26,209 bases of DNA from a virus. Numbering within the stretch: position 1 is the first letter of the stretch; every line of letters begins with the position of its first letter. Location: IMG/VR virus record IMGVR_UViG_3300046011_011878, positions 1 to 26,209 of that record. One strand, 5' to 3'. Made by a program: the position numbers and the translations under genes. Shown here one piece after another: positions 267 through 9,641 of this stretch. The notes under the pieces were generated by a model. The model was not told where the DNA came from. It saw only the letters and a program-made list of their open reading frames with translations, and did not search any database.

Positions 267-428
267 TCAATTTTCGTATTGTCCGAAAAGTTCATATCGC
301 CCATCGAAAGATTCTTCTTCCTCGTCGAGAACGAAGGGGATGTTGCCTGCATAGGAACACATGGCGAGGAAGCTGTCTGTGTCTTGGATGTCTGCGGTGT
401 CAGCGGTGGTGGTGTTTTCGTTTTTCAT
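267..428 (-). CDS. small acidic hypothetical protein, 53 aa
   Basis: The product is unrecognised. It begins M-K-N-E-N and has a strongly acidic middle (L-D-E-E-E-E-S-F-D). No membrane segment or signal peptide is visible. The open frame reaches to 545, but I chose the ATG at 428. The upstream part overlaps a promoter-like leader shared with four other genes, and the shared leader places the ATG at the same distance in each. It is a single-gene unit, separated from the upstream unit by the first GC-palindrome/TGGCACG cassette. Confidence 0.5.
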   Translation of the reverse strand: MKNENTTTADTADIQDTDSFLAMCSYAGNIPFVLDEEEESFDGRYELFGQYEN

Positions 429-436
429 GTTTTTAA

Positions 437-463
437 GGTATTCGATTAAGTCTAAAATGTCCA
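437..463 (-). promoter_or_regulatory. sigma-70-like promoter for the 267-428 gene
   Basis: On the minus strand TGGACA (458-463), 15 bases, then AATACCTT. It is preceded by the same A-tract and ATATC leader as the promoter at 229-255. The ATG follows at 428. Confidence 0.5.
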
Positions 464-494: not shown

Positions 495-544
495 AAGCAA
501 TCGTCGTGCCAGGCCGTGGTTTAGCGCATTCAGAATCCGTGCCA
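495..544 (-). promoter_or_regulatory. two TGGCACG boxes (sigma-54-like), cassette 1
   Basis: On the minus strand, box 1a (528-544) reads TGGCACG-GATT-CTGAAT. Box 1b (495-511) reads TGGCACG-ACGA-TTGCTT. Box 1b matches the sigma-54 consensus TGGCACG-N4-TTGCW exactly, with GG and GC ten bases apart. Box 1a has GA in place of GC at the -12 position. The boxes are 33 bp apart, face the downstream gene at 428, and lie just upstream of its A-tract and sigma-70-like promoter. Tandem binding sites for another protein remain possible. Confidence 0.5.
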
Positions 545-581
545 ATTTTTCTGCATAAGTAGCTCATTTCCAATGACTTGC

Positions 582-625
582 AGGCCCGACGGGCCCGTAA
601 GTCGTTGATATTCAACCACTTACGG
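582..625. repeat. GC palindrome and hairpin, cassette 1
   Basis: A palindrome GGCCCG-A-CGGGCC (583-595) is followed by 14-base inverted arms (595-608 and 612-625) with one mismatch and a TAT loop. Read on the plus strand the hairpin is followed by ATTTTTTT, like an intrinsic terminator facing rightwards. On the gene (minus) strand it lies just after the stop codon of the 632-742 gene but has no U tail. Related copies are at 1361-1434 and 2135-2200. Confidence 0.7.
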
Positions 626-631
626 ATTTTT

Positions 632-742
632 TTACAGCCCGTTTTTGCCTACATAGTCAGCGAAGGCAAAGAACAGATGCAACATTGCCAAGGTAAAGGT
701 AATCAAGAAGATAGGGTAGAAAAGTTTTTCGATGAGGCTCAT
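632..742 (-). CDS. small membrane protein, 36 aa
   Basis: Reads M-S-L-I-E-K-L-F-Y-P-I-F-L, followed by a hydrophobic stretch from about residue 8 to 27, ending in G-K-N-G-L. It is probably a single-pass inner-membrane micro-protein. The family is not recognised. The start at 742 follows an A/T-rich leader with no Shine-Dalgarno. It is the last gene of a three-gene minus-strand unit and is followed at once by the hairpin of cassette 1. Confidence 0.45.
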   Translation of the reverse strand: MSLIEKLFYPIFLITFTLAMLHLFFAFADYVGKNGL

Positions 743-787
743 ATTATTTATTTAGGTTAGTTGTTTAAGTGATTGATTGTTAGTTGA

Positions 788-1117
788 TTAGTCGCTCCAG
801 CAGTCATAAGAGCCATTGAATATCCAAGAACCATCCTCTTGCTTGATCCCATCTTGGCAAGTAAGAGATTGACCGCCAATGCCATACAAACCACAGATAG
901 AGGTGAGAAGCTCTTTGTTGCTTTGTGCAAGGCGTGCTTTTGTATCAGCGTTGCCGAAGTAGTCGCGCCCAAAGGTAGGGAATAGGTTAGTGGATGCGTG
1001 AATCTGGAATGTGCCATAGTCACGGGTTCCTGTGCTGTTGCGGGAATGAGTAGAGGCAACCTTGATGAAGTGGCGAGCGTTATTCACGGCGTCAAGTGTG
1101 GCGGTTGTATTGTTCAT
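788..1117 (-). CDS. small protein with a lysozyme-like motif, 109 aa
   Basis: Residues about 27-38 read N-S-T-G-T-R-D-Y-G-T-F-Q-I-H. This resembles the core of C-type lysozymes and related transglycosylase folds, where N-x-D-G-S-T-D-Y-G-I-L-Q-I-N holds the second catalytic Asp. Two cysteines (about 74 and 86) follow. The catalytic Glu expected about 17 residues before the Asp is not visible; a His lies near that position. The protein also lacks a signal peptide and is short, so it may be a partial or non-catalytic relative, or the match may be chance. It is the middle gene of a minus-strand unit, about 15 bases after the membrane micro-protein at 1133-1234. A main endolysin exists elsewhere in the window at 21083-21700. 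Confidence 0.55.
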   Translation of the reverse strand: MNNTTATLDAVNNARHFIKVASTHSRNSTGTRDYGTFQIHASTNLFPTFGRDYFGNADTKARLAQSNKELLTSICGLYGIGGQSLTCQDGIKQEDGSWIFNGSYDCWSD

Positions 1118-1132
1118 GATTTTTATTTTATA

Positions 1133-1234
1133 TCAGTTGTTGTCTTTTGTTTCAAGGTGAATTTTTAGTAAAACGGCGATTGTAACAAACCAGATGAAGA
1201 CGATTCCGAAGGCGATTTTGTCAGTCATGTCCAT
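1133..1234 (-). CDS. small membrane protein, 33 aa (family A)
   Basis: Reads M-D-M-T-D-K-I-A-F, then the hydrophobic F-I-W-F-V-T-I-A-V-L-L-K and a polar tail. It is clearly related to the 30-residue protein at 2456-2548: both have a D-K/Q-I-A-F N-terminus, F-I-W-F, then T-I-A-V-L-L-K and a short acidic tail. A conserved pair at this length argues that both are real genes. Each would be a single-pass membrane peptide; function is unknown. An in-frame second Met (residue 3) could also be the start. It is the first gene of its unit, with a sigma-70-like promoter directly upstream. Confidence 0.6.
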   Translation of the reverse strand: MDMTDKIAFGIVFIWFVTIAVLLKIHLETKDNN

Positions 1235-1242
1235 GAGTTGAA

Positions 1243-1268
1243 TGTATCAAAGGAATGATTTTAGACAA
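1243..1268 (-). promoter_or_regulatory. sigma-70-like promoter for the 632-1234 unit
   Basis: On the minus strand TTGTCT (1263-1268), 14 bases, then GATACATT before the ATG at 1234. A long A-tract lies upstream. It is one base shorter in the spacer than the other four members of this promoter set. Confidence 0.5.
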
Positions 1269-1309
1269 GGATTTTTTTTTGAATTTAATTGAATTTTTTT
1301 TCGAGGCTT

Positions 1310-1359
1310 TAGCAGGTGTCGTGCCAGGCCGCTATTTTAGACATTCAGAATGCGTGCCA
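1310..1359 (-). promoter_or_regulatory. two TGGCACG boxes (sigma-54-like), cassette 2
   Basis: On the minus strand, box 2a (1343-1359) is TGGCACG-CATT-CTGAAT and box 2b (1310-1326) is TGGCACG-ACAC-CTGCTA. Box 2b keeps the GG-N10-GC core of a sigma-54 promoter. The 33-bp spacing equals that in cassette 1. The boxes lie upstream of the A-tract and promoter for the 1234 gene. Confidence 0.5.
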
Positions 1360-1360
1360 A

Positions 1361-1434
1361 GTTGTAAATCGTTGCATATCAAGCACTTAGGGGCCCGGCG
1401 GGCCCGTAAGTCGTTGATTTTCAGCAACTTACGG
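1361..1434. repeat. GC palindrome with flanking inverted repeats, cassette 2
   Basis: A perfect palindrome GGGCCCG-G-CGGGCCC (1391-1405) is flanked on each side by a degenerate hairpin of the form TAA(G/A)TCGTTG ... ACTTA. The right-hand hairpin (1404-1434) has 14-base arms with two mismatches. It lies between the stop codon of the 1441-1623 gene and the TGGCACG boxes. Confidence 0.7.
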
Positions 1435-1440
1435 CTTGTT

Positions 1441-1623
1441 TTACTTTTCTATTCCGCAAGCCTCGCGGAAACGCTTGGCGTCGAACAGATTATTGTCATT
1501 TTTGAAGGTGGCGCACAGGTCAGTCACCACATTCTCGACAATCCGAAGTTCTTTTGTAGTAGTGGCTTGCGCGTATTGTAATTTGATTGCTTCGGCGATT
1601 GCGATGAAGTGTTTTTTAGACAT
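1441..1623 (-). CDS. small hypothetical protein, 60 aa
   Basis: Begins M-S-K-K-H-F-I-A-I-A-E-A-I-K and ends N-L-F-D-A-K-R-F-R-E-A-C-G-I. The ending F-D-x-x-R-F-x-x-A-C-G recalls a short conserved phage and plasmid protein family of unknown function that I remember but cannot name. It looks helical and soluble. It is the second gene of a two-gene minus-strand unit, 29 bases after the 1653-1979 gene, and its stop lies next to the hairpin of cassette 2. Confidence 0.6.
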   Translation of the reverse strand: MSKKHFIAIAEAIKLQYAQATTTKELRIVENVVTDLCATFKNDNNLFDAKRFREACGIEK

Positions 1624-1652
1624 ATTTTTGTATTTGGTTGAGGTCGAGTGAA

Positions 1653-1979
1653 TTAGGCGACAACTTCGAGGTTGTCGATGTAGGAGAAGTCGAAGCGTTT
1701 GATTTGAAGGCGTCCATCCTCCTGCTCTTCAGCCCCTTGCAGGTATTCGCGAGCCTCCTTATCCTTGCGGTTGAGAGCAACAAAGCGGTGTTGAGTGTTG
1801 GACTTGCCCCATGAGCTACCGCCACGGAGAAGAGGGAGGATAACCTCACGCCCCATGCGGATGATGCGTTGGGTGACTTCCACGCCTCCCGCCTTGAGAG
1901 GCTTTGCGTAGGTGAACCGCACGAGAGCGGTGGAGGCTGGGATTTCGTTGTTGGTGAGGTTGGTTGCGTTGTTGTTCAT
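1653..1979 (-). CDS. hypothetical protein, 108 aa
   Basis: The product is unrecognised. The N-terminus is Asn/Thr-rich (M-N-N-N-A-T-N-L-T-N-N-E), as in the 788-1117 gene (M-N-N-T-T-A-T). The body has alternating hydrophobic residues, suggesting a beta-rich soluble protein, followed by a charged segment (K-D-K-E-A-R-E-Y-L-Q) and the ending Y-I-D-N-L-E-V-V-A. Start at 1979: no Shine-Dalgarno, but a promoter of the local set lies 12 bases upstream. It is the first gene of its unit. Confidence 0.6.
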   Translation of the reverse strand: MNNNATNLTNNEIPASTALVRFTYAKPLKAGGVEVTQRIIRMGREVILPLLRGGSSWGKSNTQHRFVALNRKDKEAREYLQGAEEQEDGRLQIKRFDFSYIDNLEVVA

Positions 1980-1990
1980 AACGAAAACAA

Positions 1991-2017
1991 GGTATCACGG
2001 GGGCATGGATAGCACAA
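1991..2017 (-). promoter_or_regulatory. sigma-70-like promoter for the 1441-1979 unit
   Basis: On the minus strand TTGTGC (2012-2017), 15 bases, then GATACCTT before the ATG at 1979. The sequence AAAAAAATCCC precedes it, as in the promoter at 2772-2798. Confidence 0.5.
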
Positions 2018-2058
2018 GGGATTTTTTTATTTTTTTTGAATTTTTTTTCGAGGGCTGT

Positions 2059-2129
2059 AAGCAATCAGCGTGCCAGGCCCTACTATAGCATGATTCGTGC
2101 CAGGCCCTTGCCTAGCAGGATGCGTGCCA
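2059..2129 (-). promoter_or_regulatory. three TGGCACG boxes (sigma-54-like), cassette 3
   Basis: On the minus strand, box 3a (2113-2129) is TGGCACG-CATC-CTGCTA. Box 3b (2086-2102) is TGGCACG-AATC-ATGCTA. Box 3c (2059-2075) is TGGCACG-CTGA-TTGCTT. All three keep the GG-N10-GC spacing of sigma-54 promoters, and 3c is a full consensus match. They are spaced exactly 27 bp apart, unlike the 33 bp in the other cassettes. The tandem, regular spacing would also fit an array of protein-binding sites. Confidence 0.5.
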
Positions 2130-2134
2130 AGCAT

Positions 2135-2200
2135 AAGTCGTTGTATAGCAAGCCATTACGGGCCCGGCGGGCCCCTAAGTCGTTGATACTCAAGGGTTTG
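2135..2200. repeat. GC palindrome with flanking repeats, cassette 3
   Basis: The palindrome GGGCCCG-G-CGGGCCC (2160-2174) is identical to that of cassette 2. TAAGTCGTTG is present on both sides of it, but the flanking hairpins are more decayed than in cassettes 1 and 2. It starts about 10 bases after the stop codon of the 2210-2347 gene. Confidence 0.65.
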
Positions 2201-2209
2201 CAGTGTTAG

Positions 2210-3236: not shown

Positions 3237-4607
3237 ATGATAAAACAAATACCTATGAAGAGAATGATAGAGAAACTATCTCTAGGGTTTTCATCTTTTT
3301 CGACATCTGATAATCAAAATAATAAAGAAAATATGCCTATCATTACCAACAACAGCGAAAACTTTCACAGCGGCGAAGATTATGAGGAAAAAGAGCATCG
3401 CACTCTTTTCGGGTTCTCTACTAAAAACGTTTTTGCATCTAAATCATTAAATTTTATTTATATCGTCGTTATGTTAGTGGCAACGGCTTTTGCTTTTCAT
3501 GCTTTGTCGCTTATCTTAACGGGGTGGAATGTCGGATTAATATTTTTAGCGGCGCTTTCAGTAGTTGGATTACCATACTGCGTCAAAATTATCATGTATG
3601 GTAGAGAAAGCTTTGAATATAAGCATGCTGTACTTTGTATTATTATAAGTCTTCTTCCTACTATATTTGACTTTGTTGGTTTTTATTCTGAAACCAGTAT
3701 CAAGTCGGCTTTACAAACAACCAAATTCGAAGTTCTAGAAAAAGTTAATTATTTTGATAAGGAAGTGAGAAAATCTCTTAATAAACAGCTTATTTCTTTA
3801 GAGAATGAAACTAATAGCGCGAAAAACAAAGTCGAACAAGACTTCATTGTTAAATTAAATGAAATAAATAATAAGATTGCATCTTCCACCACTGATATAG
3901 AACAACAGTTTAATACCAAAGTTAAAGAACTTAATAGTAAAGTCAATGAGGCGGAGCAGGCGTTTATTGACGAGACTGAAGGAGTCAAAGGAAAGTCAAC
4001 TAGTGGCGTTAGCGGTATGGGACCCAGAGCGAAAGAGCTTCAAGCAGACATCAGAAAGGCGAAATCAGAAACAGAAATAGCCAGAAAAGAAATCGAGAAG
4101 AATAAAGATAAAGAACTTGAGTCTTATAAGAATAATTTAATGATTCAACAGAAAGAGGCTGAGAATTTAAAAGCCAAAGAGATAGAGAAAATAGAAAAAG
4201 AGTACCAAACTAAGAAAGTCTCTCTTGATCAGGGTGTTCAAGCTATTGATGGATTAGTTTCTACTAAAGATGGGGAAGATGGACTCATATTTAGCGTAAA
4301 TAAAGCTAAAAGCTTTGAAGAACTTGCCGATACTTCTATTAAATTAAACAGCGCGATTAATATTGTAAGCTCAAAGCTCAACGTAGAGCCTCAGTTTGTT
4401 AAATTCAAAACTGATAACGTAATTAATTTATCTTTCGGCGCCTTATTGAGAGGGGACATAACTGCAACCATATGCTTCTTGCTGGCTATCTTATTAGAAA
4501 TAGTTGATACTATTATTGTATATATGGTAAGAGGGGTAAAAACAAAACCTGTTAAAAAACAAAACATCAGAAACGTAAGGGAAAGTATTAAATATAATAA
4601 TTTTTAA
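3237..4607 (+). CDS. membrane protein with long coiled coil (DUF4407-like)
   Basis: 456 residues. A polar N-terminus of about 70 residues is followed by three membrane segments (about 72-94, 98-118, 129-150). A long charged coiled coil follows (about 165-335), with a G-M-G-P-R-A-K-E-L-Q motif near 260, and a fourth membrane segment at about 410-431. The tail is basic. This order of segments, and the G-P-x-x-x-E-L-Q motif inside the coil, resemble the DUF4407 family of membrane coiled-coil proteins seen in bacteria and large phages. The assignment is by memory and tentative. The function is unknown. It is the first plus-strand gene after the divergent spacer and has its own GTGTA promoter candidate and a poly-T run after the stop. 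Confidence 0.75.
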   Translation: MIKQIPMKRMIEKLSLGFSSFSTSDNQNNKENMPIITNNSENFHSGEDYEEKEHRTLFGFSTKNVFASKSLNFIYIVVMLVATAFAFHALSLILTGWNVGLIFLAALSVVGLPYCVKIIMYGRESFEYKHAVLCIIISLLPTIFDFVGFYSETSIKSALQTTKFEVLEKVNYFDKEVRKSLNKQLISLENETNSAKNKVEQDFIVKLNEINNKIASSTTDIEQQFNTKVKELNSKVNEAEQAFIDETEGVKGKSTSGVSGMGPRAKELQADIRKAKSETEIARKEIEKNKDKELESYKNNLMIQQKEAENLKAKEIEKIEKEYQTKKVSLDQGVQAIDGLVSTKDGEDGLIFSVNKAKSFEELADTSIKLNSAINIVSSKLNVEPQFVKFKTDNVINLSFGALLRGDITATICFLLAILLEIVDTIIVYMVRGVKTKPVKKQNIRNVRESIKYNNF

Positions 4608-8098: not shown

Positions 8099-8910
8099 TT
8101 ATTTTTGAAAGACTTGGCGGTTGGGGCTTGGCTAATACGCTATTTCAAATAGCTACAACGGTTTCTCTTGCTAAACTTAACAATACAGATTACGGCTTTC
8201 CAAGTGATTGTTATTTTAGATTTGCAAGATATAATCCGAATGCCTTAGGTAGGATTTTTTTTAAAAAAGAGCTTCCTTGGGTAGATATTAATCTTATAAA
8301 AAATCAAGACTTTGAAAGATGGGGGTTTGGGGGAGTAGGCTTTAAGCCGTTACCAACCACATATAAGAATATGATAATTGATGGCTTTTTTCAATCTGAA
8401 AAATACTTCATACAGCACCGTGATTATATTTTGGAATTATTTGAAATAAAAGATGAATATAAACTTTATATCCAGAGTAAATATAAGCATTTAATAGACG
8501 AAGACGCGTGTTCTCTTCATGTTCGGAGAGGTGACTATGCCAACGCTAGAGAACTTATTATTTTAAATAAGGATTATTATGATAAGGCAACAGAAATCAT
8601 TGGAAAAAATAAGCTTTTTGTTATATTTTCTGATGATATAGATTGGTGTAAAAAAAACTTGGATTATTTACCTAACAAGTTTTACATAGAAGAAAAAAAC
8701 GATCTTTTAGAAATGTATTTAATGTCTTTGTTTAAGAAGCACATAATAGCAAATAGTACTTTTAGTTGGTGGGGAGCGTGGATGGCAGACAATTCAAAAG
8801 TGATAATGCCAAATCCTAGCAGTAACTGGTTTAGTGAAGAATTCTATAAAGAGGCTTGGAGGGACAACATTTATACTGATTTAATTTGTTCCGGCTGGGA
8901 ATACTTATGA
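8095..8910 (+). CDS. alpha-1,2-fucosyltransferase-like (GT11)
   Basis: 271 residues. The N-terminus has G-G-W-G-L-A-N-T-L-F-Q, the G-x-G-N-x-x-F-Q-type start of GT11 enzymes. H-V-R-R-G-D-Y at 142-148 is the diagnostic donor-binding motif. F-S-D-D-I-D-W-C (178-185), I-A-N-S-T-F-S-W-W-G-A-W (218-229) and V-I-M-P-N-P (236-241) complete the family pattern. The family transfers fucose from GDP-fucose to galactose in surface glycans. It overlaps the preceding gene by four bases and the following start by four. Confidence 0.9.
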   Translation: MIIFERLGGWGLANTLFQIATTVSLAKLNNTDYGFPSDCYFRFARYNPNALGRIFFKKELPWVDINLIKNQDFERWGFGGVGFKPLPTTYKNMIIDGFFQSEKYFIQHRDYILELFEIKDEYKLYIQSKYKHLIDEDACSLHVRRGDYANARELIILNKDYYDKATEIIGKNKLFVIFSDDIDWCKKNLDYLPNKFYIEEKNDLLEMYLMSLFKKHIIANSTFSWWGAWMADNSKVIMPNPSSNWFSEEFYKEAWRDNIYTDLICSGWEYL

Positions 8911-9641
8911 AAAAAAAATATATTATAGGTATATGTTCGGTAGGCGAACAATATCATGCAAAAACTATAAAACTCATCAAAGAAATTAATGCTCTTATTG
9001 ATATAGATTTTTTAGTCCTGACAGATGAACCAAAAAATTTTGAAGGGTTTCCAAATGTTTTTTTAGAGAAGTACCAATATAAGTCTGCTAAATATTTAAA
9101 TAAAATGTTTTCGTTTCATGACAAGAAAATAATTTTCGAAAGAGGGTTTTTACATTATGATACGGTACTTCTTTTGGACGCAGATCATTCTATAAGGCCA
9201 AATCTTTATGAGGGCTTATTAGATTTTGATTCAGATAAAATTAGTTACGGAGCTTATCCGCAAATTATTTGGAGGCATCCAGTCGATTGCTCTATAGAAA
9301 ATTTTTTATGCGGGTTAACAGGAAGGGTTCCGTACGGAATAAAATTTAAAGAATACGCGATTTCTAAAAATTATAATTTAGATGGAGCTTTTTTGATTCA
9401 GGAAAGTTTTTTGCTTATTAAGTCCGACGAAAAGTCTATTTTTGATTTTTTGAAAATCTGGGACGATTTAAGTGTTTTTTGTGAAGAGCAAGACATTATC
9501 AGGGAGCAACATGTTCTTGGTTACGGCGAGGGGTACAGTATCGGGGTATCTTTGAACACCGCAGGAATAAAAATAATAGAAGATGATTCGTGCGTCAATA
9601 GGCTATCTAGATCGTTTAAACATTTTGCATGGGAAAAATAA
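8907..9641 (+). CDS. putative glycosyltransferase, DxD type
   Basis: 244 residues from the ATG at 8907, which overlaps the TGA of the preceding gene as ATGA. An upstream in-frame ATG at 8886 would add seven residues but sits inside the preceding gene. I-I-G-I-C-S-V-G opens a Rossmann-like fold and L-L-L-D-A-D-H at 88-94 gives the D-x-D metal site. The overall pattern fits retaining GT-A enzymes of the family 6/8 type, but I cannot place it further. It is the last gene of the sugar cassette and is followed by a T-run before the convergent minus-strand gene. Confidence 0.7.
   Translation: MKKKYIIGICSVGEQYHAKTIKLIKEINALIDIDFLVLTDEPKNFEGFPNVFLEKYQYKSAKYLNKMFSFHDKKIIFERGFLHYDTVLLLDADHSIRPNLYEGLLDFDSDKISYGAYPQIIWRHPVDCSIENFLCGLTGRVPYGIKFKEYAISKNYNLDGAFLIQESFLLIKSDEKSIFDFLKIWDDLSVFCEEQDIIREQHVLGYGEGYSIGVSLNTAGIKIIEDDSCVNRLSRSFKHFAWEK

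Follow-up and report, generated by a model that had tools for sequence, protein, structure and literature searches.

The window, meaning the whole stretch of DNA analysed here, is a 26,209-base IMG/VR virus record consisting of one contig. Its plus strand carries terminase, PhoH, tail and glycosyltransferase genes, and its left end carries small genes on the minus strand. The first long plus-strand gene (3237–4607) encodes a 456-aa protein with a DUF4407 match. Among the small genes lie seven boxes of the form TGGCACG-N4-[ACT]TG, which a first-pass annotation had described as sigma-54-like; all seven are present as exact matches within 498–2129, all on the minus strand, and, as that annotation had held, they sit between small genes and upstream of minus-strand genes. 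Its further readings of the array are likewise borne out: GG-N10-GC is kept in five of the seven boxes, the two boxes named as full consensus (at 511 and 2075) read TGGCACG-N4-TTGCT, and the box spacing is exactly 27 bp in the cassette at 2062–2129 and 33 bp in the other two cassettes. In the comparison with shuffled sequence that the annotation had proposed, the exact pattern TGGCACGNNNNHTG is found seven times versus 0.03 expected, and none of 100 shuffles reached seven; a second shuffle set averaged 0.04 exact matches over the window and 0.01 over 401–2210. With two mismatches allowed, the whole window yields 24 matches versus 22 expected, which is chance level, so that the strict pattern is the only informative form.

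Architecture of the small-gene cassettes

The boxes are built into a recurring cassette comprising, in the direction of the gene, the preceding gene's stop codon, a GC-rich quasi-palindrome, one to three boxes, an A-rich spacer, −35 and −10 elements, and the ATG. The window holds three such cassettes, each with an 80-nt quasi-palindrome around a GGCCC..GGGCC core and with two or three boxes; the distance from the −35 (TTGTGC, TTGTCT or TGGACA) to the −10 (TACCTT or TACATT) is 22–23 nt, and the ATG follows 6–9 nt later. In the promoter scan an A-run had to lie near the −35, and the candidate nearest the ATG was kept; the sigma-70-type promoters are predicted, as consensus matches backed by their fixed position. 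The features are as follows.

Cassette 1
267..428, minus: micro-gene, 53 aa (open reading frame and promoter position)
435..440, minus: −10-like TACCTT; 6-nt gap to the ATG at 428
458..463, minus: −35-like TGGACA (promoter scan)
498..511, minus: proximal box, TGGCACGACGATTG then CT; exact match, −10 lies 71 bp downstream
531..544, minus: distal box, TGGCACGGATTCTG then AAT; exact match, 33 bp from the proximal box
549..629, minus: quasi-palindrome, TAAGTNGTTGA..TCAACGACTTA / GGCCCGTCGGGCC / AAGT..TTG..CTTA; repeats D1 and D3, fold z about −5

Cassette 2
1133..1234, minus: micro-gene, 33 aa (promoter scan)
1241..1246, minus: −10-like TACATT; 6-nt gap to the ATG at 1234
1263..1268, minus: −35-like TTGTCT (promoter scan)
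1313..1326, minus: proximal box; exact match, 80 bp to the −10
1346..1359, minus: distal box; exact match
1358..1438, minus: quasi-palindrome; repeats, RNA fold z −5.4

Cassette 3
1653..1979, minus: micro-gene, 108 aa, without Pfam or PHROG match
1989..1994, minus: −10-like TACCTT; 9-nt gap to the ATG at 1979
2012..2017, minus: −35-like TTGTGC (promoter scan)
2062..2075, minus: proximal box, then CTT; exact match, 81 bp to the −10
2089..2102, minus: middle box; exact match, 27-bp spacing
2116..2129, minus: distal box; exact match, 27-bp spacing
2127..2207, minus: quasi-palindrome, degenerate; RNA fold z −0.75

Boxless copies of the same −35/−10/ATG layout are seen by eye at the minus-strand promoters in the repeats 208–274 and 2751–2817. 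Some cassettes in the related phages described below likewise have a promoter and a hairpin without a box, and a few cassettes of clade A contain reversed boxes; such boxless and reversed-box copies in the same phages suggest a more general cassette to which the box is an optional addition. In addition, the window contains 71% identical repeats at 1163–1218 and 2480–2535, inside tiny frames resembling paralogous short membrane peptides.

The quasi-palindrome folds strongly in two of the three window copies (z about −5), and a T-run of the kind expected of an intrinsic terminator does not consistently follow the hairpin in the gene direction. Nested pairing involves 58% of hairpin positions versus 49% when arms are mixed between different sequences, which provides weak covariation support for the hairpin. 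In most of the phages compared (window and L220–L225) the GC core hardly varies from copy to copy, and most of them differ from one another in its sequence, which reads GGCCCG[CT]CGGGCC in the window, GGCCCCCGGGCC in L222, mostly GGCCCTCGGGCC in L223 and GGCCC[AT]GGGCC in L225. This pattern of uniformity within and difference between phages suggests conversion between cassettes, or concerted evolution.

Conservation and apparent helical phasing in related phages

Relatives were found with a hairpin-derived pattern and a terminase search; most of the 120 loci of a first collection scan lay in a different context and were left out. Clade A phages (terminase at least 87% identical where tested) carry the same cassette in several copies per phage. 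In clade B, whose terminase shares about 60% identity, the box again lies between the quasi-palindrome and the promoter, but inverted. In a 134-kb record (G001), ten of eleven exact boxes fall at 3.8–8.4 kb on one strand, with none on the opposite strand and none for a reversed-letter control. The 134-kb relative also encodes a tmRNA (L236:1898–2311, minus strand; Rfam RF00023, 116.7 bits), whose predicted tag ends in ALAA; no DNA similar to this tmRNA was found in the phage collection. Behind a cassette in L220, positions 8504–9175 encode a GP88-family protein (PF17338) whose best matches belong to Pelagibacter, Stenotrophomonas and other phages; frames of 222–223 aa, the same length as this protein, lie behind cassettes in L221, L222, L223 and L225.

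Most cassettes contain a sigma-70-type TTG/TGG-N19–20-TAnnnT element downstream of the boxes. Exactly 6 nt separate the −10 from the ATG in 25 of the 35 non-redundant cassettes of clade A and in 14 of 15 from clade B. With such a gap, +1 would be expected to coincide with the A of the ATG, so that the mRNA would be leaderless; leaderless genes are marked by a TANNNT located about 12 bp ahead of their start codon (PMC3160421). SD-like motifs precede only 7 of 138 frames in G001, a scarcity that is consistent with SD-less translation and not diagnostic of it.

The box is aimed at its gene in the window and, for the most part, in clade A, where the leaderless promoter lies downstream of 55 boxes and behind 3, and it is reversed in clade B, with 0 promoters downstream and 20 behind (a set that includes one L229 box). 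In two more phage groups (L274/L275 and L229/L230) the boxes are likewise inverted and lie exactly 63 bp away from a TTGACA-N17-TAnnnT promoter.

The distance from the proximal box to the −10 falls into classes separated by roughly 10 bp. In clade A these are 68–71, 77–81 and 87–89 bp, with none at 72–76 or 82–86 and with outliers at 98 and 112; in clade B they are 62–64, 71–72, 79–80, 90–93 and 102 bp, with one outlier at 42. The clade A distances give a Rayleigh R of 0.71–0.73 at periods of 10–10.5 (nominal p about 1e-8) and those of clade B a nominal p of about 1e-3 at period 10, values that overstate independence, as the cassettes are kin by descent and probably homogenised within a genome. 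The 27 bp between neighbouring boxes in cassette 3 is not a whole number of helical turns, which counts against a phased arrangement. Autocorrelation of A-tracts in the spacer shows no clear 10-bp period, and accordingly no claim of bending is made. Tandem TTGGCACG-N4-TTG boxes also occur on other phage contigs in different surroundings, in 17-bp steps at L028:1–200 (minus strand) and as two copies 35 bp apart at L009:3395–4335.

Sigma-54 resemblance and candidate roles of the boxes

The resemblance to sigma-54 sites is close. When the window is scanned with a sigma-54 matrix derived from 29 intergenic Salmonella sites (ChIP set) printed in PMC3844500, a check proposed in the first-pass annotation, the seven boxes are the seven best matches, at 18–22 bits versus a median of 19.8 for the Salmonella sites. 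By this measure the box is, as a sequence, indistinguishable from genuine sigma-54 promoters. Position by position, A follows TG in 24 of 35 distal, 12 of 42 proximal and 12 of 21 clade B boxes versus 1 of 29 Salmonella sites, and C follows TG in 30 of 42 proximal, 9 of 35 distal and 9 of 21 clade B boxes versus 25 of 29. The proximal box often carries TGCTT, the full sigma-54 form, and in the distal boxes the N4, a stretch without base preference in sigma-54 sites, keeps the form [AC]TTC. Conservation at TGGCA and TG is partly a product of the search, since the box pattern used for it forced both.

The annotation had offered two readings, phage early genes run by RpoN or an operator-like array resembling the consensus, and the second is the better supported. 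The first lacks support, in view of a separate sigma-70-type promoter near each ATG, distances that move in steps of about 10 bp, the inversion in clade B and the frequent A at −12; no paper describing phage early genes run by RpoN was found in the literature searched. We regard the boxes as likely to be helically phased sites of a putative DNA-binding regulator, probably an activator, at the sigma-70-type promoters of small genes. A regulator seated on one to three boxes, on a fixed helix face about 60–100 bp upstream of the −10, would most simply help RNA polymerase. Having to share one helix face with the polymerase, it would allow the spacer to vary by about one helical turn, and it would tolerate a turned-round box, as the other clades indicate. 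The ATG would usually sit where +1 is expected, giving a leaderless mRNA. Observed directly are the boxes, the cassette, the promoter with its 6-nt gap, the distance classes and the change of orientation; binding of a protein to the boxes is inferred, its action as an activator rather than a repressor is suggested by the position of the boxes, and the regulator may be of host or phage origin. That the small genes are early is a guess shared with the annotation.

True sigma-54 promoters are an unlikely alternative, in which host RpoN would start transcription about 12 nt past the proximal box and the sigma-70-like element would be a second promoter. Matrix scores on par with real sites and the frequent TGC of proximal boxes agree with it, as does the 134-kb relative, where 15 of 17 matches of at least 16 bits lie at 3.8–9.8 kb on one strand; moreover, the C/T change at position 6 occurs in real sites too. 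Yet the box is turned round relative to the gene not only in clade B but in both further phage groups, many boxes have A at −12, and the distance to the promoter is helically stepped. A sigma-54 start would also yield an mRNA whose 5′ leader is several tens of nucleotides long, unlike a start at the ATG. The sigma-54 DNA-binding domain (PF04552) had no match in 14 phage records, and the enhancer-binding protein domain (PF00158) never rose above cut-off in 12, but most of the records are incomplete, which limits the weight of these negatives, and a protein supplied by the host would serve as well.

About equally improbable is a role as operators at which a repressor or silencer would close the promoters in a later phase. 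Repeated, orientation-tolerant and helically phased sites would suit looping or cooperative binding, and boxless cassettes occur in the same phages, but repressor sites normally overlap the −35/−10, and the boxes here lie about 60–100 bp upstream of the −10. A hybrid, in which host RpoN, alone or as idle holoenzyme, binds the boxes and aids sigma-70 polymerase at the leaderless promoters, making a sigma-54 site serve as an upstream activator site, appears very unlikely. Sites of replication, packaging or recombination that lie in gene cassettes by chance are just as hard to credit: direct repeats beside an A-rich stretch and a palindrome do resemble origin iterons, and the phage-specific GC core is a sign of conversion, but several box cassettes per phage, each before a gene and phased to its promoter, fit gene control better.

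With phased regulator sites as the preferred reading, a perfect sigma-54 consensus match can be something else, which bears on every regulon prediction made by matrix scan. The cassette would represent a promoter code shared within an uncultured phage group, with the same box in distantly related phages, and the recurrent box could point the way to a so far undescribed regulator of host or phage. A Lake Erken bin (L239) was considered as host and rejected: it supplied the sole hairpin-pattern match in a genome contig, a single one with no boxes in the surrounding 860 bases, the box pattern there is at or below control level, and a related palindrome pattern is absent from 299 genomes of its phylum. 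Searches via GP88, ribonucleotide reductase, polymerase and tmRNA gave no clear host.

Comparison with known systems

The leaderless TANNNT promoters of PMC3160421 share with the cassette a TANNNT about 12 bp before the ATG, whereas here this element belongs to a phage cassette with a −35 and upstream boxes. Sigma-54 (−24/−12) promoters share the sequence and spacing of TGGCACG-N4-TTGC[AT]; the boxes differ from them in an orientation that is not gene-bound, an A often at −12, a conserved N4, tandem copies and a separate downstream sigma-70-type promoter, and an activator gene was not found in the phage records. Class I upstream activator sites, such as those of CRP-like proteins, lie at variable distance upstream of the −35 and are restricted to one helix face. 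The boxes are placed in the same manner, but are asymmetric, tandemly repeated and without a known cognate protein.

Cassettes built on the promoter-early stem-loop (PeSL) were reportedly described in T4-type phages by Arbiol (2010) and Comeau (2014). Among known systems PeSL comes closest: a unit of stem-loop and sigma-70-type promoter recurs here too between genes, is dense among small orphan genes and has apparently been passed from gene to gene. PMC4503421 presents PeSL as mediating gene shuffling, a process that the suggested conversion between cassettes may parallel. Unlike PeSL, the cassette adds helically phased boxes and leaderless spacing, and no U-tract consistently follows its stem-loop. 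Nor is the phage recognisably T4-type, given a DnaE-type polymerase and a distant terminase (22–29% identity to the best of the phages listed, which are mostly those of Bacillus and Clostridioides), but it does have RIIA and RIIB homologues. Collectively, the cassette would resemble PeSL in its working without being filed as PeSL, and what is new relative to PeSL is the extra phased element, in a phage not recognisably of the T4 type.
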